DNA from: Polychytrium aggregatum
Taxonomy: Eukaryota > Chytridiomycota > Chytridiomycetes > Polychytriales
Assembly (NCBI RefSeq): GCF_025602895.1
Contig: NW_026516222.1
Coordinates: 682,001 to 746,000 of the forward strand
DNA: 64,000 nt
Direction of reading: 5' to 3'
A program made the translations under genes and the position numbers. Shown here one piece after another: positions 1,834 to 28,865 of the stretch. Position 1 is the first letter of the stretch; each line of letters starts with the position of its first letter. The notes below the pieces were generated by a model, which saw nothing but the letters and a program-made list of their open reading frames with translations, had not been told where the DNA came from and searched no databases.

Positions 1834-2011
1834 TGCTCAGAGCCGAGCTGGCTGGCTGGCTGGTGGTGGTTGTGATGGAGCGAAATAACCCCAGAGCGAC
1901 GACAGAACACGATCTCGGGGGCGCCAAAGCGAGGAGGCGAGAAGCACCAGCATCCAGCATCCCGACTGAAACTATCAGTTTTTCCGGCCCTCGCGGCAGC
2001 TCATCTCGATC

Positions 2012-2270
2012 ACCTGAAAGTCACGTTGACGCATTTGGTATCGCCTTGAGCCAATTGACGGTGATGGTGGGCGATTGGTGTGGAGGAATGACCAATTGTA
2101 TCATTGTTGGAAGCTCCACTCCGATTGCGGGCAAGAACCACCACCATCTGAATCTCTCTGGTGGGAAACCTAGTCAAGCGTAGCTGTGTGTCAGCGAGAT
2201 GACATGGTCGTTTGGCTATCAGGCAAGACTCACCTTGACAAGATGTCTTCCCACGACTGATTGAGCGTGG
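2012..2270 (+). repeat. conserved 5' block of the Fanzor element, copy A
   Basis: This stretch of about 255 bp is matched almost base for base by the reverse strand of 28585-28865, which lies upstream of Fanzor relic B. Copy A lacks about 45 bp near its left end that B keeps. Similarity stops in both copies at the same point, just after GATTGAGCG. No open frame of the nuclease runs through it. The opposite strand carries good splice signals (GTGAGT donor, ACACAG acceptor after a CTGAC branch-like site), so an antisense transcript is possible. Confidence 0.7.
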
Positions 2271-3584
2271 GAGAGCGATCGGGGTCGAGTCGCCACCAAG
2301 GCCGATCTCGAGTTCCTCTACCCGGACTTTGGCCACATCCTGGACGAGTTTCGGTACAGCAGCGACCAGGACCGCTTCCGGGCCCTCCATCGCCTCTCAC
2401 ACCATGTGAGAATCCTCGCCCGAGACAAGATGGTCGACAATGTCCACAAGTGCATCGACTGTGACATGCCCGCCCTCCGAGTCACCGAGCTGCAGCGCCA
2501 GGCCAAGCTGGACGAGCTCACTGCCCGAGGCATTCCCTCCGACGACAAGAGGTTCACCACGGCCAAGTCTGAGCTCGGCACCACCAAGGCCAAGATCAAC
2601 AAGCTGGCATCCAGGATCAAGTGGGCTCTCAAGCAGCTCGCTCTCGACACTCCTCCGTCCGTGTGCACGATAGGTTCCTCTATGCACAGCCAAGGGCCAA
2701 GTATGTCAAGATTGACACGGTCACTCTCTGGCAACTCCTTGACACCGAACATCGTCTTAGACTCACCATGGGACATGCTCAAGGATGAAGGTGAGGACGG
2801 TAGTCAACAACCAGGATCGTACTCTGGCGCAGTTGCTTCAAGCTGCGTAGCTTCCCTCTTCCAAGAGCGGGACGTGAACAAGAAGCTGTTCAACTACGAG
2901 ATCAGCACCGATGGCATTGGATGCACCATCGGTCTCGTCAAGTTTCTGCCTCGAACCGATCACACCGAGACCATCGAGCCTCCTCCGACTGCCGAGCAGC
3001 GTATCCAGGCCCACATCGGCGACCCAGACCCCGATCGCACCACTTGGATTGGCATCGATCCTGGAGTCGGCTCCATATTCACGGCGGTCATCCAAGCACC
3101 GGGCCGCCAAGACGAGGTGGTCTCGTTCTCCAATGGCCACTACCAGCACATGTGTGGCCATACGTCCAACACCAAGTGGCACAACACCATGAAGTATCGA
3201 CTCGACATCGAGACCTGGATGTCGACCACTCCCTCGCCCAAGGTGTCGTCCTCGGAGGCTTTCAAGGTCCATCTCACCCATGTCCTGCGACCGGAGCTTC
3301 GGGTGCAGCTCGACTTCCACCTTGGCAAGAAGACTCGCCACCATCGATTCACGGGCCACAAGAGACGCCAAGTGGCCGTCGACAGGATGTGCAAGGCCGT
3401 CCTGAAGCACGCCCCGATACGGACCGATGTGGTGATCGCCTTTGGCAATGCGTCATGGCGACAGGGCAAGGGATATGCATCCAGCCCTCGGAGGCAGCGA
3501 TTTGCTCGGTACTTTGAGCAGTGCAGGTCGATTGTGGAGACCGGAGAGCGACGTGAGGTTTTCACTCGGAGGCTGCCAAAGTGA
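2264..3584 (+). pseudogene. Fanzor (TnpB-like RNA-guided nuclease) relic A
   Basis: Fanzors are eukaryotic relatives of transposon TnpB that cut DNA under guide of a 3'-derived RNA. An N-terminal helical part is open from 2264. A pre-RuvC segment follows with NYEISTDGIGC (about 2895-2930), then RuvC-I as WIGIDPGVGSIF (about 3046-3081) and a RuvC-II region as DVVIAFGNASW (about 3427-3460). Comparison with copy B shows a 228-bp in-frame deletion after YFEQ that removes the CxxC zinc finger and the RuvC-III aspartate. A frame change around 2663-2790 is likely, because FLYAQPRAKYVKIDTVTLW is encoded in another frame there. No canonical ATG opens the frame upstream of 2406. It lies 135 bp from the MTQ2 stop. 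It is almost certainly catalytically dead. Confidence 0.8.
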
Positions 3585-3718
3585 TTTGATGTATTTCTTG
3601 TGGCTTTGCTTGACGCAAGCGCATCACATACTATGCTATCATGTGTCCCCTGAAAATGCGGTTTCCCGTTGTCAGGGGCCGATATTAACCCCTGCTAGTG
3701 CATTTCGCCAGCAGAATA

Positions 3719-5020
3719 TCAACTCCGCGCTGGCCGCTGGAATCGCAGGATCGACAGGCCTTCTTGCCCCGCTCGGCGGCTCATCACAACCTGTGCCATA
3801 ACAGCAAAGATTTATCGTTAGAATGTGTGTAGTAGCAGCAGCAGGAAGCCGGGCGGCAGGGTACGTACCTGCGACTCCAGTCCGTACCGGGATCGCATCA
3901 GGTCCATGAGCTCCTCCGGCCGGTTCTCCCGGATGACGACCATGTAAAATACCCCGCCAGGTGAAAGCAGCTCCTGCAGGGTTCAAAGTGTCGGTCAAAG
4001 ACTGAGATTAGCCCGGTAAGTGCCGACGGATTCGCACGATCGTCGCATCCACAAGCAAAGTGCTTCGATGGGAGGCAGGCGGCGATATTTACATTGACCA
4101 CGGGTAGCGTTCGGTCAATGACTTCCCGACCATCGATTCCGCCAGCCCAGGCAGCCTCGATCGATCGGGAGCCAACTTCGTCGCTAGTTGTAACCACGTA
4201 TGGTGGATTGAAGACCAGCAGATCGACTTGGCCATTCAGTCGAGGCTGCAGGGCTTGAGTCAGATCGGTGAGAACAGCGTTCACTGCAACCTGGATGGGA
4301 AGAGGAGTCAACCCGGTCATCAGATCATTGACCGAGTCGGCAGCTACCCACCGCATGGAGTGACTTTGAACATGCGGCTGGAACCCTCGACTGGCTGCGT
4401 GAAATGCTGTTCGCATCTCCACGAAACGCCTGCTCGATAAGCCTAGAGATTTGACGACGCTGGGCAAGCAGCTATATGGAGCAACAACGTGCCCAATGCA
4501 GATGGATTGTTGAGACTGGGTCCGTACCGAGTTTTTCTGTGCCGTCTGGATGGTAGCTGAGGCAGCTTTGGGATTAACGTCTGTGCAGAAGAAGGCTGAT
4601 GGCGGCGATTGACATGAGTCGCAGTGCCTTGGCAGCAGAGAAAGAATTCATGATGCGGCGCACAACAGGACCAAAAGGCGATCAGATATGCAGTCGCCCA
4701 GCGCGGCCGGGACCCCGGGTGTACCTCGACTTCGAGACCCAAGCATGCTCCCGAGAAAGGCGGTTGCACATCCGGAGCCAGATCTTTGAGTAGGAATGGG
4801 GTGAGTTCCGAGTCAAACGCACGTGGATAGGTAAGCCTAATCGAGACAGTCATTACCCGATTTCAACGCAGAAAAGTGGGTCGAGCGTCTCCAGAAATCG
4901 ATAATCCTTCTCCAGAGCATCGAGCAACAAGAATGTGTCCTCTGCTGGCTCGTAGACAAACTTGTAGTGGCTGGAGTTGAGGTGAGAGAGATCGGGTGTG
5001 GGGAATGATGGCCCACTCAT
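3719..5020 (-). CDS. MTQ2: eRF1 glutamine methyltransferase, MTQ2/N6AMT1 family
   Basis: This cytosolic enzyme (with Trm112) methylates the glutamine of the GGQ motif of release factor eRF1. Six exons splice to exactly 222 codons: 5020-4857, 4783-4725, 4595-4528, 4290-4093, 3973-3869 and 3790-3719. The 221-aa product compares with about 214 aa for the human protein. Visible motifs are YEPAEDTFLLLDALE near the N terminus, the SAM loop EIGSGSG split across introns 1-2, CTDVNP, the catalytic NPPYV followed by IEAAWAGG and DGREV, and SRRAGQEGLSIL near the C terminus. It is divergent from RPS15 with about 570 bp between starts. The placement pairs a termination-factor modifier with a ribosomal protein, though shared regulation is only a guess. 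Confidence 0.95.
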
Positions 5021-5588
5021 GGCTCGGGAGACAGAGGCTGAGTTTCAAGCGAAGTCAGGAACAGAACCACCGTGGAGGAAGAGCTGAGGGCAGACGATCG
5101 CGCGGATCTGCAAGTTTTGGCGTCGACGATAGACGATTGGGAAGTTGCAAATCGGCTGGCTGACACAGCCGCGGAGTTGCAACATCGACGCCGGCGAGTT
5201 TGCAGAGAGTACGAGCGAGAGAGCGATGCCAGGACCGGCATCTGGCCAGCATCTTGAACGCCCGCGCTAGTCGAATTGTGCCGTGTAGTGCGCTTTCGGA
5301 ATACAAGGCTTCGTTCGATCTGAAGGGCGACCTTGGCGAGGCTTCATGGACGGGCCGGTTCATGGACTGCTCCCCTCCCCTCCAGCGAGAAGCCAGCGAG
5401 AAGCAAGCGAGAAAATCGACGCGAATCACCGTTCTGTGCACGCTGCCGCCACGGAACGGATGTCTGTGCGACCGGGCGCACCCGCCCGAGCCCAGCAAAA
5501 TGAGGGCGGCCGTCTCCAATTCCTTTTGCTCCTCCTTTCTGTCAATTCGGACTCACTCGTTACAAGTCTTGACACTAACTCTGCAACC
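5021..5588. promoter_or_regulatory. divergent intergenic region MTQ2 / RPS15
   Basis: The stretch separates two divergent start codons and should contain both promoters and 5' untranslated regions. No open frame with family similarity was seen. A pyrimidine-rich tract (around 5510-5580) precedes the RPS15 start, as is common for ribosomal protein genes. Confidence 0.5.
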
Positions 5589-6930
5589 ATGGTCAGTGCG
5601 CCCATCCATCCATCCATCCATCCATCGATCCATCCATCGATCCATCGATCCGCCTATCTATCCATCCATCCGTCCATTTGTGTGTCTGCTGGAGCGAGCT
5701 TGGTTCTGCTAGGGCGGTGATTCCAACGATGGGCGGAGCTCGGTCGCCAACAAGAAAGTCTCCAAGATTTATCAATGCGACCAGAGCGAAACAAGACAGG
5801 GAGCTGGGTCGTTAGCCAGCCGTGGTGCGGCCAGGACGACACAGCCCGGAGCACCTTTGCACGGACGCTGCAGCGGTACATCGATTTGGACCCTGGATGC
5901 CTGTGATGGACGGACTTCCAGGACGCCAACGAATCGATGCTGTGGCCGATGGCTAATGCACCGGGAGAAGCACGCGGAACGATGCAGCCCTGGCCAGGTC
6001 ACTCGCCACATCAGCCCACGCCGGAATCCGACCGACTAAGCCGACAGGATGCGCGACCGTCACGGACCAGCAGACACACGGGATGCGAGAAGCGAGACAG
6101 GGCTGGGCTCATGCCCCTCGATACGCCGTACTAACCGGAATGCCATCGTCGACCAGGCTGACGATCGTGATTACGAAGGCATGACTCCTGAGGAGATTGC
6201 CGAGCTCAAGAAGAAGAGAACCTTCAGAAAGTATACCTTCCGTGGTATCGATCTTGATGCTCTCCTCGATCTCTCCAGCGAGCAGGTATGTGCAGCCGGC
6301 GTTTCATCCCGACCGTTGAACTGTGAGCACTTCAGAAGCAACCTTCTCACTTACAATGTCCTCTGTGGCAGCTTATGGACATTGTCCACGCCCGCGCCCG
6401 CAGACGCTTCCAGCGTGGTCTCAAGCGCAAGCCCATGGGTAAGGCCGTCATTCCGGGGCACAACTGCGCCGAGTGTTGAACCGGGGCCAAGGACTGTGTG
6501 TTTCATGGACAGTCGCTCACCCAATCCTTCTGTTCCCACATTCAGGTCTGATCAAGAAGCTCCGCAAGGTAATTGTCGGGTCTTTGCCGTGAGATCCAGG
6601 AGGATAGGAGAGTAACAAGCGAGCAACTACGGGAAGGATAGGTGATTGTACATTAAGCTGTTGCTTCCTCGAATATAGGCCAAGAAGGAGGCTCTCCCCA
6701 ACGAGAAGCCCACCACCGTCAAGACCCACCTCCGCAACATGATCATCGTCCCCGAGATGATCGGCTCCGTCGTCGGTGTCTACAACGGCAAGGTCTTCAA
6801 CCAGGTTGAAATCAAGCCCGAGATGGTCGGCCACTACCTCGGCGAGTTCTCGATCACCTACAAGCCCGTTAAGCACGGTCGTCCCGGTATTGGTGCCACC
6901 CACAGCTCGCGATTCGTTCCTCTCAAGTAA
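5589..6930 (+). CDS. RPS15: 40S ribosomal protein uS19 (S15)
   Basis: This small-subunit protein of the ribosomal head contacts tRNA near the decoding region. Five exons give exactly 158 codons: 5589-5591, 6157-6285, 6372-6438, 6546-6568 and 6679-6930. Exon 1 is only the ATG, followed by a 565-bp intron with a CTAAC branch-like site at 6131. Family blocks seen are [17 protein letters not shown], the arginine-rich [37 protein letters not shown] and the C terminus [14 protein letters not shown]. The product (157 aa) is slightly longer than the usual 145 because of an N-terminal insert containing [14 protein letters not shown]. Exon 4 is only 23 bp. Confidence 0.97.
5600..5682. repeat. CCAT/CCATC microsatellite in RPS15 intron 1
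   Basis: Degenerate tandem CCATC/CCAT units occupy the start of the first RPS15 intron. They produce spurious open frames rich in histidine, proline and serine. Confidence 0.85.
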
Positions 6931-7273
6931 AGGAGAGAATTTTGTCATTTGCTGTTTGTGAATGTTGTAAAAACCATAATAAACCCCTCCGTCGATTCGC
7001 AGAATGCTGTCGATCAACACGGAGGTCGACCGAACATACACCACGCCCACTTTTCTTCTGTCTCTGGATCATCTCTTATATTGTGTGTTGATTATGATGA
7101 GTCTGACGGACCAAATCGAGTGCTGGGGTGAATGCACAACGCGGGAACAACGCCGGGAGGAGATGCGGTAATATATATAGTCATGTCGGCGAGGGGAACC
7201 ATTGACGCAAAACACAGGCAAAAATGCACGGTGCATGGGACCGAGCACGGGAGAACACAGTGCGGCGCCACAA

Positions 7274-7424
7274 CAGGAAGCAGGAAGTAGGAAGCAGGAA
7301 GCAGGAAGCAGGAAACAGGAAGCAGGAAGCAGGAAACAGGAAGCAGGAAACAGGAAGCAGGAAGCAGGAAACAGGAAGCAGGAAACAGGAAACAGGAAGC
7401 AGGAAACAGGAAACAGGAAGCAAG
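7274..7424. repeat. GGAAGCA/GGAAACA minisatellite, arm 1
   Basis: About twenty 7-bp units alternate between GGAAGCA and GGAAACA. Six-frame translation gives artefact proteins rich in RKQEAG or CFLLP. Confidence 0.9.
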
Positions 7425-7581
7425 ACAATCCAGAACAAATCAGGACCAACATGGCCAGACAGCAGTCTGTGCAATGGCAGTGAGAGCAGCTCAAAGCAAC
7501 AAGCGATGCAGCGACTGACAGGAGGGAAAGAGACCAAAGTGGCAAAATGGAGAGACGGAATCAGGAAACAACAGGTCCGAG

Positions 7582-7653
7582 AGGTCCCACCGAGATTCGA
7601 ACTCGGGTTATCAGATTCAAAGTCTGATGTGCTAACCGCTACACTATGGAACC
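7582..7653 (-). tRNA. tRNA-Gln (anticodon TTG), arm 1
   Basis: A cloverleaf folds on the minus strand with acceptor GGTTCCA pairing to TGGGACC, anticodon stem TCAGA/TCTGA around loop CTTTGAA, and T-arm GAGTTCGAATCTC. The loop gives anticodon TTG for glutamine. No intron. It is identical to the copy at 14641. Confidence 0.95.
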
Positions 7654-7772
7654 GCAGTGCGTCTGGGTCTCCCGGGCAGCTCTGTCCCGGACATCACGGC
7701 TGATGGCGCGTGGAGGCACAAGAGGAGCGAGGCACGACCAAGCAAAGAAAAACAGAACATTGCAAAACGAAT

Positions 7773-7845
7773 TGCCTTCTACCAGAATCGAACTGGTGAC
7801 CTTCTGCTTACTAGGCAGACGCTCTGCCAACTGAGCCAAGAAGGC
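7773..7845 (-). tRNA. tRNA-Thr (anticodon AGT), arm 1
   Basis: Acceptor GCCTTCT pairs with AGAAGGC; the anticodon stem TCTGC/GCAGA encloses CTAGTAA, giving anticodon AGT (read as IGU after deamination). The T-arm is CCAGTTCGATTCTGG. A poly-T run lies downstream on the minus strand. Only 7 bp separate it from tRNA-Glu. Confidence 0.95.
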
Positions 7846-7852
7846 ATGGGTA

Positions 7853-7924
7853 TTCCGCATCGGGGAATCGAACCCCGGCCACCTCGGTGAAAGCGAGGGA
7901 TCCTAGCCACTGGACCAATGCGGA
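7853..7924 (-). tRNA. tRNA-Glu (anticodon TTC), arm 1
   Basis: Acceptor TCCGCAT pairs with ATGCGGA; anticodon stem CCTCG/CGAGG holds loop CTTTCAC, giving anticodon TTC. The T-arm is CGGGGTTCGATTCCCCG. It is upstream of tRNA-Thr with a 7-bp gap and no intervening T-run, so the pair may be one transcript. Confidence 0.95.
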
Positions 7925-8074
7925 CGTGTTGCTCTGTAACGTCCTCGGATCGAACCCCCACAGTGCCGGCTCGACGATTTCGTCGTTCCCGTCGGGCCAA
8001 AGCCCAATTTACCCGAAGATATCTAAATGTTATATCTGAACTAAATCTAAACCCTGTCGAGCCAAACCGAAACC

Positions 8075-8158
8075 AGGTCAAACCGAAACCAGGTCGAGCT
8101 GAAACCAGGTCAAACTGAAACCAGGCCAAGCTGAAACCAGGCCAAGCTGAAACAGAGC
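8075..8158. repeat. 17-18 bp tandem repeat, arm 1
   Basis: About five units of the form GAAACCAGGTCAAGCT lie near the inner end of arm 1. The same block is present in reverse orientation in arm 2 (about 14141-14226). Confidence 0.8.
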
Positions 8159-8324
8159 CAGAGCCAGAGTCAAAACGGCCCAAGCAGCCGGACCAAGCCA
8201 AACAAGCCACGGCCCCGATGTCGCAGCGCCATGGCCCGACCCCGTCCTCCAGCCACTCCCAACTCCCAACTCAACTCCCATTCGGTCGACTCTTGCTTCC
8301 TCAGCATGACGGCACAACCGAATC

Positions 8325-8649
8325 TAAACGAAGTACAATGTCCATGTACGTTGAATGGTGTTGATTCATCTCCTGGCTGAATGCTGCTGATCGTCGCTCG
8401 CGCTGCGATGGTCTCGGCCGCCGAGATCGACCACAGAAACATTGGAGTTGTGGACAGTCTCTGTGGGGACACCCAAAGGAAATGGCTTCACCCACATAGC
8501 GAGTTTATCATGCAGTCCGACTTTGGCAGGCTTGTGTTCCAAACCCATGCGTTCGGTTATTGTTTCAACACCTTGTAATCCCTCATCCATAGTGAACTTA
8601 TCAAGGAAACCCATTGATCACTTCAATGTCATTTTCACTGGCTTTATTA
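8325..8649. other. no clearly supported gene
   Basis: A minus-strand open frame (8366-8614, about 82 aa, starting MGFLDKFTMDEGL) lies just beyond the stop of the next gene. It could be its 3' untranslated region or a small separate gene. No motif was recognised. Confidence 0.3.
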
Positions 8650-10824
8650 TTAAACAGCCTCGATAGAACAGAGTCCCAGAGCTGGTGTTCCAACTGCGTG
8701 CTTCACAGCAGCACCGTTGTCCGGACGAACGACCTGGAACCGAACGGCCCTTGGCAGCTGATACTGATGCTGAAACTTTGGTCGATGGTAAATCCAACCT
8801 TCTGGCGGCATGTCGATGAGAGTTGCTCGGGGAAGATGAATGTTTCGTTCCAATTGTTTTTGCTTTAGTTTGAAGAGCTGGTTTTGCACAGCTAGTCCTG
8901 TGGCAATAAGCATTTCAATTGGAAGCTTCTGCCTCTGCCGGTTTACTTCGGCGTTTTCTTCTTGTGGATCGTGGCTCGGTTCTTTTTTGTCGGCACTGCG
9001 ATGGTGGTGATGGTGGCTGTGGCTGAATGGGACGCTCGACTGGGATTTTATCCATGGGCGATCCATCCGTAGATCCCATTTCTCAGGGGTGCCCCTCTGC
9101 TGTGACTGGAAGCTCCCTACAATCGTAGCTGTGGCCTGGTCCTGGATTTTAAAGATCCGATTATCGCCATTTCCTGTAGTGCCAGGAAGCTGTCAGTTTC
9201 AAATACGTTGAATCATATCACTTAACCTTGTTGACCTATCCATGACATCGACGAGGACGTACCGATGAGTGCGAGGCTGGCACCTTTGCATTTGATATCA
9301 AGTCGGGCAAAGGAGGTGCCCGAACTTCGATCGATTGTTCCACGCAGCTTCCAGTCTCCGTTCTTCATCTTGGCAAAGACATCGAATCCGACACTCTGCA
9401 AACGGCCATATCCGCCTCAGTCAGATCGATCCATTTCTCTGTTCTCTCTCTATGAATTGTGTAAAGCTTGACGAAACATCGCACCTCCGAAGACTGCCAT
9501 TGATAATTCTGCAACACTAGTGCTTACACCGGATCTTTCGGAAACCTTCCAAATCTCGCGACCCTCGGGGTTTTGCAGGAAGATCGATGTGTGAAGTGCC
9601 ACATCCTTCTGAAATGTTGTGTAGATCAGGGCACCGTCCTTGCCGAACCGCACATCGCCGTCTGTCTCGCCGAAGGAAAACTCGATCAATGACATGCACA
9701 TCTCTGCAAGAAGACCAGCCGCGATCGGGTGCAAGCGTGCCTGGGATGATGCTTGGATTACGTACGGCATTTGTATCCTCTGCTGTTCAGCACAAAATGA
9801 AGCTGCCGGTCGGGCTTGAGATCATTGTTCTCGATCGCTGGCATTTTGAGGAGTACTGGCCTGAACTTGCTGTCGATCTCGATGGGCTCTCTCTCCGGAC
9901 TGCTCTGGCGCCTCACTTGACCCTCTGTTACTGCCGATGGAAGGTCACAGCGCTTGGCACACTTTTGGCAAGCATCCGGATTCGACATGGCTGGGATAGC
10001 CGGGTGGCGAGCAGACGTCGGAACGGCTGCAGATGTACCCCGAAACACAACCCTCTCGCAACTGACGCCTGGATGGCAGTTTGAGCAAAAGTGCGGGATC
10101 CGGTGAATCAGATGATGGAAGCAATGATGGGATCTGCGTATCTTTGGAGACTGCGGAGGGGCCGACGGCTTTGTCAGCGACGGCATCCTAAGCGTCTCGG
10201 ATGGAGAGCCTGGGTGTGTTGCGTTCGGGTACCGGATTCGAACATGTTAAATCCAAGGGTTTGACAGAGTTGGGTAGTAGAACATGCATTCACGGAGGGG
10301 AGCAGAGTCGTCATCAGTGCAATGTAGCCAGACAGCATCCGAGGGAATCGACTGCTGTTTGAACGAATGCGCTGCATTGCAGTGCATCGAGCCTCACCAC
10401 TGGGCTTTTCCGAGACCAGCACTAGGTTTCGCAACGAGGCGTCACGAAAGCGATCCAGCTCCGAGCGGATCGTGTCCTGAGTTTCGGTGTCGAGGGTGCA
10501 TCGCTTGGTCGAGGTGTCGGCAATTTCGAATACACCAGCTGGATTGACGATGGTTTTTGACGGCCGATGTGTATTCAACTCGGATTTGTGGACCTTGACT
10601 AATGCTGCTGGCCGCTTTGCACAGTAGCTGTGTCCCCGTCCCATCTCCTCGGGCCACCTCCAGACAGGCTCGGGTGCTTCGGGCATATCATCGGGAATGA
10701 GGAACGGGATGCGGGGACGACATCCTGCCATGCGTGGGGAGCCGCTGCGACCGGGCTCATGCGATGGAGTCTTCCTGTTGCTCCAGTCTATTGATGACAT
10801 GGTGACATCCGTGAAATGGTGCAT
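8650..10824 (-). CDS. multi-exon protein of unknown function with paired CxxC motifs
   Basis: Five exon-like segments on the minus strand are joined by good GT-AG signals. They are 10824 to about 10398 (start MHHFTDVTMSSID), about 10215 to 9768, about 9705 to 9532, about 9392 to 9263, and about 9175 to a stop at 8650. The second contains CSNC and CQKCAKRC about 45 residues apart, a possible zinc-binding pair. Segments three and four have a beta-rich look (FGETDGDVRFGKDGALIYTT and VGFDVFAKMKNGDWKLRG) ending in a glycine-rich turn. The last exon has a histidine run and a charged helix. I do not recognise the family; a beta-barrel such as a Tubby/LURP-one fold was considered but cannot be shown. 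The gene is confined between the inverted arms. Confidence 0.55.
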
Positions 10825-11490
10825 CGGCCGCTTTGGCAGGGGATGGGCACGAAGACTACGACGATCGCGGCGTGTCTACGTTGGTCGCATTTGCTGGATA
10901 GGGGGGGGCCTTGCCGTTGCTCACGTCGGTATCAATCGGGTCACAATTCAAAGACTTGTGCTCGAATGATTCGCTAGGAGAGTTGGTATCTGCGTTCTAG
11001 AAACCGGGGCGCACATCTGGCAATCACGCCGAGACGGACTCGGCGGCGACGAAGACAGTGGCGGTCGAGTTCTGGGATCGAATCCCGAGGTATGATGGCC
11101 AGGTGGACTCGGGGGATCTCGAACCGATCTCCCTGTCATAGAGCATCGAGCTCAGCTGGAGATATCTCTCGGGAGCTGCCGAAGCAACCGTCATTTGATC
11201 GCATGCAGGATACAGGCCGCCACAGTCTTGAATGCACCCGGTCGATCTCCTGCGGTGATGGTCAAGTGGCATCTGTGACCACAGCGGAACGAACCAAAGT
11301 CGGTTCGTTTCCCACGCTCTGCCGCACACACACACATGCGCGTGGCTTGGGTGCACGTGACGGCGTTTTTTCTTCGCCTTTTTTTGCAGCCGCGACAAAA
11401 TCGTGCCCAGATCCTGCAGGTCCGAGCGCCCGCCGTCTTCTCCCTGTCGCCCACACTCAAGGCCAAGCACAACCCTCCCAAGCCGTCGCC
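10825..11490. other. intergenic between unknown gene and eIF3d
   Basis: This divergent interval should contain both promoters. It includes a 48-bp Fanzor-end fragment (11225-11272), a CACACA run near 11325 and a pyrimidine-rich leader before the eIF3d ATG. A tRNA T-arm-like string near 11067 does not fold into a tRNA. Confidence 0.5.
11225..11272 (-). mobile_element. short Fanzor 3'-end fragment
   Basis: Read on the minus strand, this segment matches relic B from TGCCAGTCGATC through GATCGACCGGGTGTATTC with about eight mismatches in 46 positions. In B this corresponds to codons after the RuvC-III motif. No other element sequence is visible on either side. Confidence 0.65.
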
Positions 11491-13811: not shown

Positions 13812-14369
13812 CTTTGTACGTACATAAAGATATTTGTTTCCACTGTTTCTTGTTCTCGTCCCGAATTTCCACCCCCCGTGTCATCCATGCGACGTCCCTG
13901 TCGATGACTGCATGCCGCCGCTATCAGGGCTCTCATGGCGCATATATTACTATCGGCCGACCCGGCTTCGATTCGGTTGTGCCGTCATGCTGAGGAAGCA
14001 AGAGTCGACCGAATGGGAGTTGAGTTGGGAGTTGGGAGTGGCTGGAGGACGGGGTCGGGCCATGGCGCTGCGACATCGGGGCCGTGGCTTGTTTGGCTTG
14101 GTCCGGCTGCTTGGGCCGTTTTGACTCTGGCTCTGGCTCTGTTTCAGCTTGGCCTGGTTTCAGCTTGGCCTGGTTTCAGTTTGACCTGGTTTCAGCTCGA
14201 CCTGGTTTCGGTTTGACCTGGTTTCGGTTTGGCTCGACAGGGTTTAGATTTAGTTCAGATATAACATTTAGATATCTTCGGGTAAATTGGGCTTTGGCCC
14301 GACGGGAACGACGAAATCGTCGAGCCGGCACTGTGGGGGTTCGATCCGAGGACGTTACAGAGCAACACG

Positions 14370-14441
14370 TCCGCATTGGTCCAGTGGCTAGGATCCCTCG
14401 CTTTCACCGAGGTGGCCGGGGTTCGATTCCCCGATGCGGAA
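14370..14441 (+). tRNA. tRNA-Glu (anticodon TTC), arm 2
   Basis: Identical in sequence to the arm 1 copy. Acceptor TCCGCAT/ATGCGGA, anticodon loop CTTTCAC, T-arm with GGTTCGATTCC. The spacer to tRNA-Thr is 7 bp (TACCCAT). Confidence 0.95.
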
Positions 14442-14448
14442 TACCCAT

Positions 14449-14521
14449 GCCTTCTTGGCTCAGTTGGCAGAGCGTCTGCCTAGTAAGCAGAAGGTCACCA
14501 GTTCGATTCTGGTAGAAGGCA
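14449..14521 (+). tRNA. tRNA-Thr (anticodon AGT), arm 2
   Basis: Identical to the arm 1 copy; loop CTAGTAA gives anticodon AGT. TTTT and TTTTT runs occur within 25 bp downstream and would terminate RNA polymerase III. Confidence 0.95.
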
Positions 14522-14640
14522 ATTCGTTTTGCAATGTTCTGTTTTTCTTTGCTTGGTCGTGCCTCGCTCCTCTTGTGCCTCCACGCGCCATCAGCCGTGA
14601 TGTCCGGGACAGAGCTGCCCGGGAGACCCAGACGCACTGC

Positions 14641-14712
14641 GGTTCCATAGTGTAGCGGTTAGCACATCAGACTTTGAATCTGATAACCCGAGTTCGAATC
14701 TCGGTGGGACCT
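14641..14712 (+). tRNA. tRNA-Gln (anticodon TTG), arm 2
   Basis: Identical to the arm 1 copy; loop CTTTGAA gives anticodon TTG. It is separated from tRNA-Thr by about 120 bp. Confidence 0.95.
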
Positions 14713-14869
14713 CTCGGACCTGTTGTTTCCTGATTCCGTCTCTCCATTTTGCCACTTTGGTCTCTTTCCCTCCTGTCAGTCGCTGCATCGCTTGTTGCTT
14801 TGAGCTGCTCTCACTGCCATTGCACAGACTGCTGTCTGGCCATGTTGGTCCTGATTTGTTCTGGATTGT

Positions 14870-15007
14870 CTTGCTTCCTGTTTCCTGTTTCCTGTTTCCT
14901 GCTTCCTGTTTCCTGCTTCCTGCTTCCTGTTTCCTGCTTCCTGTTTCCTGCTTCCTGCTTCCTGTTTCCTGCTTCCTGCTTCCTGCTTCCTACTTCCTGC
15001 TTCCTGT
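14870..15007. repeat. TTCCTGC/TTCCTGT minisatellite, arm 2
   Basis: Same 7-bp units as in arm 1 on the opposite strand, with about two units fewer. This is the only clear length difference between the arms. Confidence 0.9.
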
Positions 15008-15172
15008 TGTGGCGCCGCACTGTGTTCTCCCGTGCTCGGTCCCATGCACCGTGCATTTTTGCCTGTGTTTTGCGTCAATGGTTCCCCTCGCCGACATGAC
15101 TATATATATTACCGCATCTCCTCCCGGCGTTGCTCCCGCGTTGTGCATTCACCCCAGCACCCAGTCCCAGCC

Positions 15173-17850: not shown

Positions 17851-18308
17851 CTTACAGGCTTGGTAATGGTCGCTGGCTTGCGTTGGCCAGGCGAGGTGCG
17901 GATGCTGCTGGTTCGGGAGCTGCATATCTGTCTCAGGGTCGTCTTCTGGGCCGCTCCTGTCCTGGCGGGAGGGCGCACAGGCGATCCAAAGATGGTCAAA
18001 TTGATTCCGGCTGCGCGCACTGCCACATCCGCAAGTCCGATTCGTGATTTGATCGGCCATCCAGGAGCGGGTCCGCAGTCCACCTTGGTCCTTGATCTGC
18101 ACCACCAACAGCCCAGACTTCTCGTCGCTTGTTCGTACGCTCAACCAGTAAGTCTGCAAGCGCCGTGGTCATCCGGATCGGGGCGGCGGCTTGCGTCGTT
18201 GCTAATGGTCCTTTGAATGCACCCAATCCAGTGATATGGCAGCGGCTTCCTCTCTCATCACGCTGCGGTCTCCTTCCGACGATTGGGGCGGCTGGCCTGC
18301 TGCGATCC
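17851..18308. promoter_or_regulatory. divergent region GCNA-like / BCS1
   Basis: About 460 bp separate the chosen starts. The GCNA-like reading frame stays open upstream to 18159, so part of this may be coding. Confidence 0.4.
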
Positions 18309-21084: not shown

Positions 21085-21795
21085 GACGCCACTTGCTCCA
21101 CGTGCGAAGGCGAAACCACAGCCAAGCGTCTCGGCATCGCGTTGGGACAGTGCTTCGACTCGCTGGATAGATAGCCCTGCCGGCGATCGGCTGTGTCTCG
21201 AGACGACACAGCTTGTTTTTCACACTCGTCGCCGATGTTGCTTCCCTACGATTCGATGTTCGCTGCAACGACTCTCCTCCCTGGGCTGCCTGACTGTCTC
21301 CACAGTCATCGCATCAATAGATTCTCCCTGTAGTCATGTCGCCATGTCCCAAGTCGTGCGGCTGACGCAATCTTATTGGGTTGGTCAGGGGATGAGCGGA
21401 TACGACAGGGTTGAGATATCGGCGCGATATTTCGCTTTAACAGGGGCAAGTCTTTGGTGTATGATCTTTGCTGAGTGGCTTCAATGGGATTTCAGGGTAT
21501 CAGTGCTTTGAGGCTCGATGGGTTTAGGCTGTTTACGATCCATTCGACGAACAGAGGTCTGACCTTCGACAACTGTTGGTGGCAGCAGTGGAGGTGATCT
21601 TTGAGGAGTTGGAGCGAATTAGTATCAATCGGGGGAACAAAGACAGCGCAGGACACGGAACAGCATCACCGCGAAGGGGCAGAACCACGCTCGAACCCAT
21701 GTCCTCGACAGGGTGCCAAGAATGGTACGTGCAGATGGAGTCTGCTAGCGTTTGTGTATGTGTCTTGCAAAACTCTTGGTGGGTGGGAGGGCAAC
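21085..21795. other. convergent intergenic region
   Basis: This is the space between the 3' ends of BCS1 and the kinesin gene. No gene was recognised. The kinesin frame ends at GTGTAAGT, which also resembles a splice donor, so one more short exon of that gene may lie here. Confidence 0.4.
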
Positions 21796-24700
21796 TTACA
21801 CTTTGGGATCACCCTGACGCTGAGGCTTGTGTGATGGCAGCATGATGGGAGGCAGCGTAACATTCTCTCGGCTTGATTCCCACGACAGACCAGACGCCCT
21901 CCGGTCCAATCTCGGTCTGCTCGCCAGAGATGGCGCCGAGGACCGGCCAAGCGTTGCTTCGATATTGTCCCAGCTGTTCTGCAGCTGTGCAACAGATGCG
22001 CTCAGCCTCGGGAGCGAAGCCATCGTGCCCTGCAGTTCTTCGAGCCTTGTTGATGCAGCTGTCATATCGGACATGGACATTGATCCAAGCATCGTCTCGA
22101 TAGAGCCCGCGTCGGACAAATGTTTTGGACCAACTCCAGCAAGGAATTTACCGGTAGAGTCCGTGTTCTCGACAGCGGCCGGAGCCATCGCTTGCAGCTG
22201 CTGGACAAGTGGGTAGATGGCCAGCAGCTCGTTGGTGGGCTTGACTTTCTTCTTGGCCAGCAAGTCCCTTTGAGAATCGATTGCCTGGAGAAGCGATGGA
22301 ACGACGGACGACCGGAGAATCTTGTTCTGGGTCTGGACATGGGACAGGGACTCTGCTAGATGCTGACACTGCTGCTTGAGGTAGTGCGCTGTTTGTGTGG
22401 CCCCGTCCGTGCGGAGGGGAGGCAGCCGATCAAAATCAAAGGCGCAGGGTTATCAAAATTGAAACTAGAGATCGGTTGCATTGACTAGGGGACCAAGACT
22501 CGGGGTGCGTTCGACATAGTCAAGCATCCTTTGTCCCCACAGTGCGGACGGCAATACAAAGGGAGCTGTCCATACATCCGTTGCAAGGGATGACGGGCAA
22601 GCAATACAGAGGTTGGGATGGCTATACCTTCGATAGACTCATAGTGCAGAGCTAGGAGGAAAACCAGGTACTGTGGAAACTCTCCAGAGGTTGATCTTTG
22701 CGTGACCTTGATGTCGTGAGACGGTCGGTCGGGACATGGGTTGTTCATCGGAGCGGTGCATCAAATGTCAGTGCTGCTCTGGCCGAGTACACGTGGAGGA
22801 CGGACTCGATGCAGCAAGCGCTGCGGTGTCACTCGGCCTGCCTCCACCACCTCGCATACCTTGACGAGATCATGGATCTTGTGCTCGCACTGTAGAATAT
22901 CATTCAGAAGGCTCGATCTCTGGGTCTCTTGATCATCAGACTTATTCTCTGACAGGAGTATAGCCACCAACCTGCGGTGCATTTCCATTTCTTCTCGGAA
23001 GAGCTGTCGAAGATCCGAAACGAGCTTGGCCGAGCAGGCGCCCGAATCAAGCAGCGGAACTTTGCCTGTTGATTTGGTGTGGGTCAGGGGATTGGGCACC
23101 TTGCATGCCAGTGTCTTGGTGGTCGCGGGGCGTTGCTGCTGGCGCAAGTGTGCCGGAAACTTGGGCTGGAAATCGGGTGGCAGGGGCACGACGTTGTACT
23201 TTGTTTGAATCTGTGGGATTTGGGGGGCAACCATCAATGGAAACGATTGGCGTCGCGGCGTTATGCGGTTGCTCAAGGCAGTGGCGGTGTGGTCTGGAGG
23301 GGCGACGAAATCGTGTCTTTGACTCGGACTGCTGCATATACACCGTATCTGTGACAGACCTTGTTCTTGATCGAGCGAGCACGAGTGGCATACTTGAGGG
23401 TGTTGACTGTTTCGTCGTAGTGGACTTGGGATGGACTGATGTTCACAATCATGATTGTCCGGCAATGTCCTCCCAAACTATCCTAAAGCCAGAGCCGCTC
23501 CATCAGTCGGGTCTCCGATGCAGAAACGACGACAATCCGCGGCCAAATCCAACCAACCAAGGGAGCGATGGTCCACGAGTCCCGCGACTCACTTTGAGCA
23601 GCCGCGTCAGTTTGCTGTCGCGATAGTTGATGTATTTCCCCTTTTGTCCCTCTGACAGGGCGTTGATGCAGTTACCGAGTGCCAACAGCGAACGGTTGAT
23701 GCTGGCACCTTCGACCATACGAATCCCACGATTCTATGTTGTGATGATGATGATTATTGCGATTCAGGATCGAGCCGCAGTATTGGCCCCATTTCGATTG
23801 TCCAATGCAATTTGCAGTGAACAGAGTTGTCGAGAGTGAAAGGCCTGTCAGCAAGCCAGTGATGCTCGATGCATTCTCCCCATCCATCATGGCAGGCATC
23901 GGTCCCATGCGGTCATATTCGAGCAGCGATTGTAGCTCTTCCCCAAGCACTGACGACGCTGGTGATACTTGCATTTGTCTCGGCAGCTCGCTCTATCGAC
24001 ATGGCCCCGAGATCAGCAGCCACCAAGGAGAGTGTATTGGCGACAGAACCGATAATGCGAAGTTCAAGCCACGCAGCCATGCATTGAGTTGGACAGGCAT
24101 CAGACGAGGATGTATCGAGATTACAGGAGGTTAGATGATACGGAAGCGCTTGGTGTATTCAGTCCATTTGCCAGGAGCTCCGCGAGTGGTCATTGTGGCA
24201 TTTTGTTGTCTGCTCCCCGCTGAAACGTACCTGATCCTGCAAGGTCGATTAGTCCCATTTTGGCCGTTCGCCGTGACTTACGCTTTGAATTCGAGACGTC
24301 GTCCCACTCGATCTGGATTTGCATGATGGCGTGGCTCCGGGACGACACCTCGTTTGCCCCTGTGGCTTGCTGTGATCTGAGCCGATTTCCCTTGTCCAGG
24401 AGCTCGAGGACTTTGTCTGCAGTCGAGACAGTGATCTCATTCAGTCCGGCCACAAACACCGACCCAGAGCCGTCCTCCCGCAGCTCCAGGCACTCAAAAT
24501 TGGGTTCGGCGGAGAGCAAGTCATAGATGCTCTCGTTGTAGATCTCAAGATACGACATTCTGAGACTGCAAGCTTGCAGGCTGCCCGCTCCGACGGCATC
24601 AAAGAGATCGTGTAGCGTCCGGGACATGATTCCGGGATCAGCCTCGGTGCCGAGCATCGTGTACCTGCGATACCGGGTCGGAGAGCAGAGCGGAGGCCGA

Positions 24701-25621
24701 CATTGGGAGTCAATCGAGATGGGCGAGCGTGCATGGGTGCAAAGCGGGTGCCTCTGACACACTCCGAGGCATGTTAGGACAACACCAACGTTTTTCCACA
24801 TCCAGTGGCTCCTGCATTATCCGTCAGTCAAAAGCGTGGATTAGCATTGCAGCTGTGACTGCGAGTGGTCGTCGTGGATGTGTTGGCGAGAGAAGCTCGA
24901 GGGCTGACAAGTGATGGACGTGCACAGAGCGACTCATGCTGGAGGGAAACCAATTGACACGCGAGATGGTGATGGAAGGCAGAATGGTGGGAGTCGGTGT
25001 GGCATTTGGTGTTGGGGAGGGCCCAGGAAAGCGGGCGCTATCCGGCAGCAGAGAGTATTCGGAGCAGACGGCAAGAACGCACCATAGGCGAACACGGTGA
25101 CGTTGTATCCGTCCAGGAGCGAGGGAATGAGGTCCTTTGCTGTCCGGCAGTATACATCGGCCTGGGTATCCTTTTCAGAGAACACACGATCGAAGGAGAA
25201 GAGCTGCTCCTTGAATTTTTCTCGCTTGCGGATCTCGTCGGCAGCAGGTGGATGCGGTTCGGTCACCTGGATCGTCTACCAGCCGCAAGTCGGAGCCACA
25301 AGAGAGATCCATTGGGTGAGAGCCAGGAGAGTATGCAGAAGTGAGTGGACAGATGCTGGTCGAGGAGCATCCATTGGTGCGTGGGCTGCTGGTGATGGTA
25401 CCTTTGAGTCCAAGGCAGTGACGCAGATGGTGGGATCCTTTGCTCGCTCCTTTTGTGAGAGAGGACGCAGTCGCACGGCGACCTGCGAGATAACCGCAGC
25501 GAGGGCAAGTGAAGGTGATGTTACTAAAGTCGAGAGGATATCGACAGGAGACCGACAGATCGGTCAGGGGTTGGATGCCCACCAAGACATTTGGATGCAG
25601 ATCGTCGTCGTCCTTGCTCAT
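21796..25621 (-). CDS. kinesin-8 family motor (KIP3/KIF18/KIF19-like)
   Basis: This is a microtubule plus-end motor expected to limit microtubule length in the spindle or flagellum. The start [12 protein letters not shown] is at 25621. The motor domain is split over many exons: [28 protein letters not shown], the P-loop GATGCGKT (about 24800), [17 protein letters not shown], the switch I motif NEVSSRSHA, the switch II motif [23 protein letters not shown] and [16 protein letters not shown] micro-exon near 23975-24000 seems to supply the ERA after LIDLAGS. Coiled-coil segments (about 23000-22780 and 22260-21990) form the neck and tail. [11 protein letters not shown] is typical of kinesin-8. Exon edges in the tail are approximate. 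Confidence 0.88.
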
Positions 25622-25842
25622 GGAGCTCTGAGCCGCGGGCACGGGCGATGCGGAGACATGCAAATCAAGAAGCAGGCAAGCGTCGGTGTCTTGTGGACAG
25701 GCAGGCCAGCGGCGAGGAGCGAATATGGATGCGGGAGTCGGGGAGAGAGAGTCGAGGTTTGAGCGAGTGCGATACTGAGGAGGGCGGCATTGACGGATGA
25801 CGACACGGACGAAGCAGAGACGAATCGCAGTGACGGGACACT

Positions 25843-27294
25843 GCCGCCCCAACCAGACCCAGCGCCTCCTTGACATCTGCGAGGCCCACAGCATCGAGAA
25901 CCGATACCAGTTCTCGCCTCCGAAGTGCGAGGTGATGTTCACCGAACAGCACCCAGAGAAGGATGCCAAGGTACACCTGTACGGCAAGGAGCTGCCAGTC
26001 GCCAAGGAGTTCCGATACCTCGGAGCCATCGTCGACATCAACGGCTTCAGGATGGACCGCCAGATCCAGAACCTCACCCACAAGGCCCAAGGCGCCGCCG
26101 ACAAGCTGGTGAAGCACGGAATGAGTCTGGGCCGATACTCGGCCAAGACAGTGACGAGGGTGTTCAAGACCTTCGTTCGGCCCATGCTCGAGTATGGACT
26201 GACCCTCGAAGTGCTCACGAAGCAGCAAGCCGTGATACTCAGACGAGCACAGATGCACTGTCTGACCCGACTCTTCAGAGTGGTGCGGAACACGTCCTAC
26301 GGAGCGATGCACCTCGGATGCGGACTCATCACCCTGCCCAACCGCCTCAAGCAGCTGGCCCTCCAGAACCGAGCCGTCTGGGAAGACCGTCTGGACCACA
26401 ACGACAAGATGGTCTCGATGGTGTTGAGATATTCCCGCATCCAGCCCAGCCTGATGGATGCATCCCTCGGCTCCCAGTTCTACCTCGACGAGTACTGGCG
26501 GCAGCTGATCGTGCTGAAAGAGCAGTGCCAGCCGGACTACCCGATGAAGGAGCTGTTCAGGAACGGCCACCACGAGCTCACAGGGCCACCAGTCAAGTTG
26601 CAGATTCACATCGATGACGCGCAAGGCTTCGACAGGTCAAAGGAGCTGACTTCGGCCCGCACCGTGACGACGACCATGTCGGGACTGTGGGCCGAGCGAG
26701 GGCCCAAGAGAGATCGATACTATCACAACATGATGGTAAGATGGACCCTCGGTGCCTTTCCTGGACACCCGTATGGTCACTATCGGCTGTGCATCTCCTG
26801 CACGAAGAGCCGAGGAGAGTTCGTCGCGATGTGCCGGACCCACACCCAGAGCTGCGTCGGAAGAGGCGGCTCGTGGCAACGGATAGTGGACGAGCTCGAG
26901 CTGCGGCACCCCGAGTGGCAAGAAAGCGAACACGAAAAGGTCGGCCCGATCGACAAGCTCCTGGACCTGACGAACGTAGTTGGCTACTACGAGCTGGATG
27001 GCATGAGAATGTTCAACTGGCAAGACCCAGATATCCATACCCTGTGGCGAACACTCCGAAGGGTGTTCAAGACGCTGATCATCGCCAAGGCGGGGTGGAA
27101 ACCCCCCAGGCGATAGGCGGCATGGTCGAAGCAGAGCGAGAGATGAGGGCATATGGCTCTCATTTCTCAAGACTGCTCACTAGGTCTATAAGAACTTTAT
27201 TTTCTATCCTTTTTTTTTCTTTCCTTTCCCCTGATATACTGCTAGGGCCGACCAGGCCTTGATAGCTTTCAATTGAAATATTAAAAAAAAAAAA
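25843..27294 (+). mobile_element. 5'-truncated LINE (non-LTR retrotransposon) with poly(A) tail
   Basis: An open frame to 27116 encodes the C-terminal part of a LINE polyprotein, beginning just after the reverse transcriptase active site. It shows NQTQRLLDICEAHSIEN, PPKCEVMFTE and FRYLGAIVDING, which are post-catalytic RT and thumb motifs. Further on is a cysteine/histidine segment (RLCISCTKSRGEF and MCRTHTQSC) of the kind found at LINE C termini. A 3' untranslated region with a long T-rich stretch ends in an A-run at 27282-27294. A second fragment at 38625-38982 contains the missing RT core. The insertion lies about 220 bp upstream of the kinesin start. Confidence 0.85.
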
Positions 27295-27590
27295 CCGCGA
27301 CGCTGCCAAAGTGGCCCGTGGGACACTATGAAAAAAATTTCATGTTAATAAAATGAGCGAGAACGAAAAAACGCGCTCTCGGAGCCACCTCGGTCGGCGA
27401 GAAGAGCAGTCTCTGGCGAGAGACCCCCGAGGGAAGGCGAGAAGCCTCTCGCCGTCACACACACACACTTTGCACACACACACACATTGCACACACACAC
27501 TTTGCACAAGGGAGTCAAACACCTCCCATCGACCATCCCAAGAGGGATGGCAACCCCGAAGTGGACTGCCCAGAATATGGGCGACCCGGC
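27295..27590. other. short intergenic strip with CA repeats
   Basis: The strip separates the LINE tail from Fanzor relic B. A CACACA microsatellite interrupted by TTTG and TTG occupies about 27457-27512. No gene was seen. Confidence 0.6.
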
Positions 27591-28580
27591 ATCCACTGTC
27601 GAAATGCACAAGAAACAGTGCGAGATACTTACAGTCTATCCAGAAAGAAACGGGACAGTCACTTTCTGGCTTCAGATGTCTGAAGCCCGTTGACTGACTG
27701 TAGACCCCAGTGGGCAGGTCGTGCGATTGTTTCCCGTCCTGGTTGGCAATCGAGTGGTTTTGGTTGGTTTGGGAAACATGGTCTTGAATACACCCGGTCG
27801 ATCTCCTGTGGCGATGATCGACTGGCATACCGAGATCATGTTCCTGGCTGCATTGATGTCTCGATCCCACAGCGTATGGCAGCTTGCACAGCTCCGGACA
27901 AAGTGTGGTTTCTCGATATCAAGATGCTCGGGTGACTCAAGTCGCTTGGCTTCCCGACAATGTGAGCACACCTGGGATGTGTTGAACTCGTTCACCGAGC
28001 ACACATGGATCTTGGAGACGGATCGGTCTGGTGGTCGTCTCTGGTGGTGGTGGAACTGCTCAAAGTACTTGGCGAACCTGAGCCTCCGTGGGCTGGATGC
28101 ATATCCCTTCCCCTGCTTCCAGGATGCATTCCCAAAGGCAATCACCACCTCGGTTTCCTTTGGTGCCTGGTCGATGACTCGCTTGCACATCTCGTGGACA
28201 GTGCGCTGTCGCTTGCTGTGGAGATCGAGTCGCTTGAACCGCCGTCGCCGGGTCAGGCTGAAGTACAGCTGTTTGTCCAGCATGTCTCCATCGAACACAT
28301 GGCGAATGTATTGCAGGAAGGGAGCCAACCCAGGGATCTTGGGACTTGGTGTGGTGCTCATCCATTTCTGCAGACCAAGGATCTTGTGGGTGTTCTGGAT
28401 CCACTTGGTCGCCTGGGTGGTGTCTTTCTCTTGGGAGCCATCTGGCGAGAAAATAGCGACGATGGCTGGTTCTGCCCTCGGGGAAGAAAAATTCTCCTCA
28501 AATCCAGCGCATTTGGGCTGGCAGAGATACTGTGCAGTGGCGTCCTTGATTCAGATCCAGAAACGCATTGCTCGCTCAAT
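27591..28580 (-). pseudogene. Fanzor (TnpB-like RNA-guided nuclease) relic B
   Basis: The C-terminal half of the nuclease is intact. It shows WMSTTPSPK, the RuvC-II region VVIAFGNASWKQGKGYASS, a zinc finger with VCSHC and CASC, and RuvC-III as LWDRDINAARN, with the stop at 27672. Upstream, at about 28500, the frame can be aligned to the RuvC-I segment of copy A, but it reads ALDLRRIFS, so the DPG loop is lost. All of the N-terminal lobe present in A is missing between this point and the 5' block. The 3' untranslated region contains a perfect short hairpin (CTTCAGACATCTGAAG) and an end-like string TTTCTGGATAGACTG also found near 59025. It is not expected to be active. Confidence 0.85.
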
Positions 28581-28584
28581 CAGT

Positions 28585-28865
28585 CGTGGGAAGACATCTT
28601 GTCAAGGTGAGTCTTGCCTGATAGCCAAACGATCATGTCATCTCGCTGACACACAGCCACGCTTGACTAGGTTCCCAACCAGAGAGATTCAGATGGTGGT
28701 GGTTCTTGTCCGCAATCGGAGTGGAGCTTCCAACAATGATACAATTGGTCATTCCTCCACACCAATTGCCCACCACCGTCAATCGGCTCAAGGTGATATC
28801 AAATGCCTTCAACAGACCATGGCCGGATTCCAATTTTGCTGCGCCACATCCAACGTGACTTTCAG
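28585..28865 (-). repeat. conserved 5' block of the Fanzor element, copy B
   Basis: This matches 2012-2270 at roughly nine positions in ten, which is far closer than the coding parts of the two relics. It includes a 45-bp stretch absent from copy A. Read on the plus strand it holds GTGAGT and ACACAG splice-like signals. Confidence 0.7.

Follow-up and report, generated by a model that had tools for sequence, protein, structure and literature searches.

How did two differently broken copies of a Fanzor nuclease come to lie in one short stretch of a chytrid genome, and do they belong to the same element? The stretch, hereafter the window, comprises 64,000 bases of Polychytrium aggregatum contig NW_026516222.1 (C113:682001-746000, forward strand) in an assembly of 64,678,306 bases and 418 contigs. 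A first-pass annotation, made from the letters of the window, had recognised the two copies, here called relic A and relic B, and had treated them as broken copies of one family that together attest a complete element. We find that this genome carries two Fanzor1 subfamilies at high copy, A-type and B-type. We consider it probable that a nested insertion carried a Fanzor1 out of a mariner and into a CACTA-like vehicle, and that both relics are derivatives of the expanded system.

Two relics from two Fanzor1 subfamilies

Relic A contains an open frame of 439 amino acids on the plus strand (2265-3584). It retains the RuvC-I motif GIDPGVGS (3051-3074, plus strand), with the DPG signature of the Fanzor lineage, together with TDG and the RuvC-II region. 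An in-frame loss of about 77 residues near 3521 has removed the zinc finger and RuvC-III, all as first annotated; the frame also lacks the N-terminal ~290 residues of an A-type Fanzor. Relic B has an open frame of 292 amino acids (27675-28550) on the minus strand, an orientation that the annotation did not state. As reported there, it carries RuvC-II, the zinc finger (CSHC, CASC) and RuvC-III (DRDINAARN) and has lost the N-terminal lobe and RuvC-I by deletion. Its first ATG falls at the RuvC-II region.

Both relics are Fanzor copies. Relic B has a profile match to PF07282 (Cas12f1-like TNB, zinc finger plus RuvC-III; 27837-28013, minus strand, E = 1.2e-10). A Pfam search of relic A alone gave no match. 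Used as a query against the genome, relic A gave 96 best-scoring matches among 1451 first-look candidates; the 95 matches other than itself are 82-85% identical to it, and it is therefore no chance frame. An uninterrupted frame of at least 743 codons is present in 75 of these 96 best-scoring rows, a stop in 10 and a shorter frame in 11; the ranking is biased to intact copies. With relic B as query, 134 matches were scored among 1763 first-look candidates. Some of their frames span about 770-1010 codons, a large group has about 300 codons, as relic B does, and others are intermediate or contain stops.

Copies with all motifs, whose existence had been predicted, are present elsewhere in the genome. 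In eight full proteins that were aligned, GIDPGVGS is invariant (8/8), as is the TDG of the WED domain (T488 D489 G490; 8/8). DPG in RuvC-I is a mark of the Fanzor lineage and TDG lies in the WED domain, according to the accessible text of PMC10711439. The Fanzor pattern D-X(125,275)-[TS][TS]XX-C4-X(5,50)-RD, taken from the accessible part of PMC3627910, occurs in the A-type protein L012 (D538, T717 S718, C721 C724 C747 C752, R758 D759) and in neither relic alone. DPG, TDG, the C4 finger and RD are found at Fanzor-like spacing in A-type and B-type proteins alike.

With a profile built from the eight proteins, the best solved relative is the Spizellomyces Fanzor1 (SpuFz1, E = 3e-4), followed by the Guillardia Fanzor1 (0.13). 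None of 7995 scored candidates from a collection of 5.8 billion proteins reached E 0.01, and another protein search, with 7994 candidates, gave no relative at E ≤ 0.001. Judged by these sequence comparisons, the Fanzor lineage of this genome is divergent, and the suggestion of a distinct lineage stands. An N-terminal CX2CX4HX7C motif is conserved, once in the A-type (L012) and twice in the B-type (L056, L058); it gave no match to a Pfam zinc knuckle.

The idea that the relics are halves of one family's element does not survive, as full A-type and B-type proteins are just 43% identical. The coding parts of the two relics align over just 100 base pairs (bp) at 82%. They share a non-coding 5' block of 237 bp at 95% identity (2031-2267 on the plus strand, 28806-28573 on the minus strand). 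Relics A and B belong to different Fanzor1 subfamilies, and both carry the 5' arm of a CACTA-ended vehicle.

A 29-base pattern from the A-type RuvC-I has 248 genome matches at up to three mismatches (reversed control, 0). Three B-type copies that were checked differ from it at 4-6 positions, so it should count mainly A-type copies. The A-type right end has 329 matches (reversed control, 0). Uncollapsed haplotypes may raise these copy counts by a factor of up to about two: host chitin synthase genes occur as near-identical pairs on two contigs, and loci L010 and L011 have no differences over 4.3 kilobases (kb). Near-identical host gene pairs were seen on C61/C101, C11/C83, C73/C372 and C74/C364, which are probably uncollapsed haplotypes. 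A copy of relic B on C150, 99.3% identical over 3.9 kb including flanks, is probably allelic to it.

A mariner-type parent and a CACTA-ended composite

Tc1/mariner elements have a DD34D/E transposase, a TA target duplication and inverted repeats. The complete A-type element (L053 plus L012) is about 3.75 kb long; it opens with TA-CAGGCAATCCAATAAAAAACGGGACA..., continues through a DDE transposase region into the Fanzor frame, and closes with ...GTCCCGTTTTTTTCTGAATAAAGTG-TA. A frame change breaks the transposase frame of this copy; many other copies are listed with a 325-codon frame. One of these, L059, encodes a transposase of 325 amino acids with a DDE_3 match at 1.7e-25 and a D-D-34-E arrangement, in which 34 residues separate the second D from the E. 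Genome-wide, PF13358 gave 150 scored matches among 335 candidates. When these 150 listed matches were paired with Fanzor, a DDE_3 match lay 1104-1250 bp upstream on the same strand in at least 51 of the 96 A-type matches, a lower bound, and downstream in 0 of 96. TA is present at the right end in 14 of the 15 full-type A copies shown and precedes CAG at all three left ends examined. An inner repeat, AAAAACGGGACA, is common to both mariner-type ends, as judged by eye. Five B-type copies (L058, L070, L071, L077, L078) are mariner only, with the mariner right end followed by unique flank. The parent is a two-gene, TA-flanked Tc1/mariner-like transposon, in which a DD34E transposase is followed by Fanzor1. 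This carriage, with a DD34E transposase and TA-flanked ends, is of the non-IS607 kind expected for Fanzor1.

CACTA (EnSpm) elements have CACTA...TAGTG ends and a 3-bp target duplication. In L056 and L057 a B-type Fanzor, with 898 codons in the first and 894 in the second, lies within a 3.7-kb unit whose ends are CACTATCAATTTTT and TTTTTTCATAGTG; the end sequences of the composite are CACTATCAATTTTTTCCGG and CATAGTG. The sole piece between the left arm and Fanzor is the last stretch of the mariner transposase (DVFPRLIERAMRFWI*), and downstream of Fanzor the fossil right end of the mariner runs into an arm of constant sequence, about 300 bp long. The right-arm motif was found in 39 of 47 sequences scanned, preceded in 39 of 39 by the mariner right end, with up to three mismatches in 29 for 38 copies and six for one. 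The end motifs were scanned in 49 sequences, of which 16 have both ends; two duplicates were dropped, and L043 and L026 were unmatched. Of the 14 non-duplicate copies with both ends, nine are flanked by a perfect 3-bp target duplication (at 1/64 for each, the probability of this by chance is about 1e-13) and one by a 2-bp match; duplications of 4, 5 or 8 bp were found in none. The 14 copies comprise B-type composites and their miniature derivatives. L043 is a composite with an 11-base flanking repeat (TTCGCCACATC) in place of the expected CACTA end.

The composite is abundant, with 145 genome matches for its 5' junction, 122 for its left end and 151 for its right arm (reversed controls, 0). 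Among the first 100 listed of the 145 junctions, 47 have a B-type C-terminus at most 300 bp downstream (the short form), 24 have one 1.9-2.3 kb away (the full form) and 29 are followed by none of the 134 scored B matches. Sixteen composite copies chosen for long frames have 893-1011 codons without a stop. Smaller derivatives with ends were also found, L089 at 665 bp and the two minis L086 (250 bp) and L087 (295 bp), the latter two without Fanzor.

Relic B is a short-form, CACTA-ended composite (27324-28893, minus strand) whose 5' end is cut by about 20 bases and whose 3' end, CATAGTG, is kept. Its 5' arm (28573-28806, minus strand) carries the mariner transposase tail DVFPRLIERAMRFWI* at its downstream end, and the fossil mariner-type right end (GTCCCGTTTCTTTCTGGATAGACTGTAAG) lies at 27628-27656 on the same strand. 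Small indels aside, relic B corresponds to L056 minus two internal stretches (L056 2728-3093 and 3153-4945), and its deletion junctions are crossed in a single alignment by all 23 other short loci fetched.

The relic A element (1970-3700, plus strand; ends approximate and judged by eye) comprises a degenerate CACTA-type 5' end (AACTATCAG...), the 5' arm, an A-type Fanzor fragment and a 3' end ...CTAGTG; a target duplication was looked for at its ends and none was recognised. The arm (2025-2267, plus strand), 96% identical to L056 and 95% to relic B, finishes in a remnant of the mariner transposase tail, and a junction 35-mer lies at 2231-2265 (plus strand). Here the composite arm is joined to A-type Fanzor from about residue 290 onward. 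L026 has the same 5' junction, but its C-terminus is whole; the in-frame deletion of relic A is shared with C221 and C235. Neither relic is therefore an isolated piece. In the relic A element the B-type body was apparently exchanged for an A-type one, and the transposase tail common to A-type and B-type (43 bp, 95%) is a plausible crossover point for this replacement.

Origin of the composite and competing explanations

From this anatomy we infer the following order of events. One B-type mariner copy would have inserted into a transposon bounded by CACTA...TAGTG. Of this mariner, the left part and nearly the whole transposase would then have been lost, leaving Fanzor and the mariner right end. 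The composite would have spread as a single unit, generating 3-bp target duplications, in forms with a full Fanzor and as internal-deletion derivatives measuring about 1.6 kb, 0.67 kb and, where Fanzor is gone, 0.25-0.3 kb. Relic B, a composite with internal deletions, would belong to the 1.6-kb class, and relic A would be a composite-derived form in which a deleted A-type body was swapped in for the B-type body.

Several observations weigh against this history, which we nevertheless regard as strongly favoured. Both ends were recognised in just 16 of the 49 sequences scanned, and five of the 14 copies have no 3-bp duplication. Relic A and L026, the A-type composites with both ends, have degenerate ends and no target duplication. 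No empty insertion site was seen among the 39 arm-bearing sequences of the 47 scanned, and five loci fetched in search of one (L086-L090) were deletion derivatives and minis only; because no CACTA element with an unoccupied site was found, the nested insertion rests on the fossil ends. No CACTA transposase was linked to the composite: there are 29 Transposase_21 matches genome-wide, and the six of these loci that were checked had no matching end within about 3.2 kb each. The vehicle is called CACTA-like because no CACTA transposase was seen in the composite. Predicted folds of the 3' RNA are weak, with z from -1.4 to -1.8 for A-type and from -0.7 to +0.3 for B-type. Finally, the copies were taken in order of similarity and trimmed to open frames, which biases the set to intact ones, and recombination with full copies may have lent the short and composite copies their low ratio of nonsynonymous to synonymous substitution (dN/dS).

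This ratio is 0.28 among 15 A-type copies. For the C-terminal core of B it is 0.23 in 20 short copies, 0.19 in 10 composite full copies and 0.29 in four mariner copies (bootstrap 0.14-0.63); over a longer stretch including the C-terminal tail it is 0.37 in 21 short B copies. Copies without the trimming motif were omitted from the A-type and longer-stretch estimates. The trimming motif was absent from seven of 45 B sequences (L045, L063, L067, L069, L071, L072, L076), which were omitted from the B-core dN/dS and from the tree, permutation and linkage analyses; four duplicates were also excluded from the B-core dN/dS, permutation and linkage.

Descent of the copies was not purely clonal. The short, composite and mariner forms of B cannot be separated by sequence (permutation of label against sequence, p = 0.29), and with the tree this led us to reject purely clonal descent of the short copies. 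Linkage between variable sites (r2) among A copies (13 of 20 loci) falls from 0.51 for sites less than 10 bp apart to 0.08 for those more than 30 bp apart, where independence predicts 0.084; among 34 B copies it falls from 0.23 to 0.03-0.04 (independent, 0.031). The composite 5' arm decays similarly to the Fanzor frames. In the right arm of short composites the decay is slower, with r2 0.215 at 30-100 bp and 0.112 at 100-300 bp, and values of 0.09-0.11 beyond 100 bp are still over the independent 0.063 (17 of 24 short loci were used for non-coding linkage). Ahead of the A-type frame, again with 13 of the 20 loci, the value at 30-100 bp is 0.150, with 0.085 expected under independence. These two regions speak against an even mosaic. 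A view in which variation is limited to the Fanzor frame was dropped, as non-coding parts also vary and recombine. L056 and L057 represent one insertion, since their flanks are near-identical (five differences in the 2278 bases before the insertion, none in 5978-6390), and they show 110 differing alignment columns within the Fanzor frame and four in the 847 bases preceding it.

Frequent exchange between copies is the simplest reading of this mosaic. An assembly effect is also possible: assembly or polishing of a high-copy repeat could have produced both the mosaic and the differing frames of L056 and L057, and we give this a minor yet appreciable chance. The assembly does contain uncollapsed haplotypes, linkage decays in some non-coding parts too, and the mosaic was judged from assembled sequence of the Fanzor elements. 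Linkage in the Fanzor frames, however, reaches the independent level within about 30 bp, below the usual read length, and the frames remain open, with indels of 3 and 9 bp. The low ratios could alternatively mean that the short, C-terminal-only frames are kept as products in their own right, for example as a regulator of the nuclease. The 20 short copies, at 0.23, have a codon bootstrap interval of 0.13-0.35, and their singletons comprise 27 nonsynonymous and 16 synonymous changes and no stops. We think this improbable, given that the intermixing of B forms allows the constraint to stem from recombination with full copies, that copies were picked by similarity and open frame, that the ratio rises to 0.37 when the tail is included, and that some short matches contain stops while the first ATG of relic B lies as far in as RuvC-II.

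It is likewise unlikely that random truncation in one or two Fanzor families left the relics as dead fragments with no relation to each other. Catalytic parts are lost in both, the 5' end of relic B is cut, relic A has no target duplication, and A-type derivatives have a dN/dS of 0.41 against 0.28 for full copies, all as ordinary decay would have it. What disfavours decay is that the deletion junctions are shared: those of relic B by every other short locus fetched, a form found at nearly half of the junctions surveyed, and that of relic A by C221 and C235. The 5' arm is, moreover, common to both relics.

The role of Fanzor here would likely be the one put forward for TnpB and Fanzor, guide-RNA-directed cutting of element-free sites, after which repair restores the element. 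By analogy with TnpB, and in line with the discussion of Fanzor in PMC10432273, the guide would derive from sequence flanking the right end. A guide (omega) RNA made at the 3' end is a feature of Fanzor1; the A-type 3' stretch has a low diversity, 0.017 (96 columns), compared with 0.043 in the frame and 0.028 in its last third, but its predicted fold is weak. Composites would make one common guide, because the flank after the mariner right end is nearly constant. A more speculative proposal, which we hold to be doubtful, is that the captured Fanzor drives its new vehicle: the common guide would be directed against the CACTA vehicle and convert Fanzor-free sisters, and the breaks would keep copies recombining. 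In the minis L086 and L087 the target site of such a guide is lost. If the proposal were true, Fanzor-driven breaks would explain why alleles in the Fanzor frames are near-independent beyond about 30 bp across loci.

Some other loci were observed. At L002, L003, L006 and L007 (C124, C379), inverted pairs about 5 kb apart carry a 477-amino-acid frame in which a MerR-like helix-turn-helix (weak, E 0.006) is joined to a TnpB/Fanzor2-like nuclease (PF07282, 2e-18; PF01385, 1.5e-8); judged by eye, it has the apparent start of an IS607-type serine recombinase. In the window, 55173-58369 (plus strand) encodes a PBP_like_2 domain and then 7tm_3 in an overlapping frame, probably a class C receptor with a bacterial-type binding domain. 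Together with chitin synthase (26 genome matches, against 0 of 14 control genomes), this gene points to a fungus, and receptors of its kind suggest an early-diverging one. A pair of inverted 1.2-kb repeats, 98.7% identical, lies at 7120-8327 and 13967-15160.

Comparison with known Fanzor carriers

Fanzor1 in Mariner elements and the exchange of Fanzor between transposons are already described in the accessible text of PMC3627910, and copy numbers of up to hundreds in that of PMC10711439. A literature search, mostly without subscription papers, returned no paper with both Fanzor and CACTA, and Fanzor and EnSpm occurred together only as separate subjects; neither CACTA nor EnSpm appears as a word in the main text of PMC3627910, as far as that text is accessible. 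PMC10711439 leaves to future work the question of why so many transposon superfamilies carry Fanzors, in contrast to TnpB. The present genome has the donor form, with its own transposase, and the recipient form, with other ends, both at high copy and with open Fanzor frames. Since the two co-occur, the contribution of the nuclease to each vehicle is directly comparable.

The accessible portions of the cited papers allow three comparisons. SPu-1/SpuFz1 of Spizellomyces punctatus (PMC3627910, PMC10432273) is alike in having Fanzor1, a TA target duplication and inverted repeats, and in both genomes there are copies without a Fanzor frame (for SPu-1, 19 full-length copies among 42 Fanzor loci, plus 134 ghosts). 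Within SPu-1 elements no transposase was found, according to the available text of PMC10432273, whereas the parent described here has a DD34E transposase and there is a second, CACTA-ended vehicle. The mariner-associated Fanzor1 of Bao and Jurka 2013 (PMC3627910) is likewise carried by Tc1/mariner-type DNA transposons; here one subfamily occurs in both mariner and CACTA-ended vehicles. The Sola2-Fanzor chimeras of Dictyostelium and Polysphondylium and the pair CMe-1A/TE-N2_CMe, of which CMe-1A has about 150 copies (PMC3627910), also reflect exchange of Fanzor between transposon bodies. In contrast to these, the composite described here keeps the fossil end of the donor legible in the new vehicle, and both forms are present in one genome.

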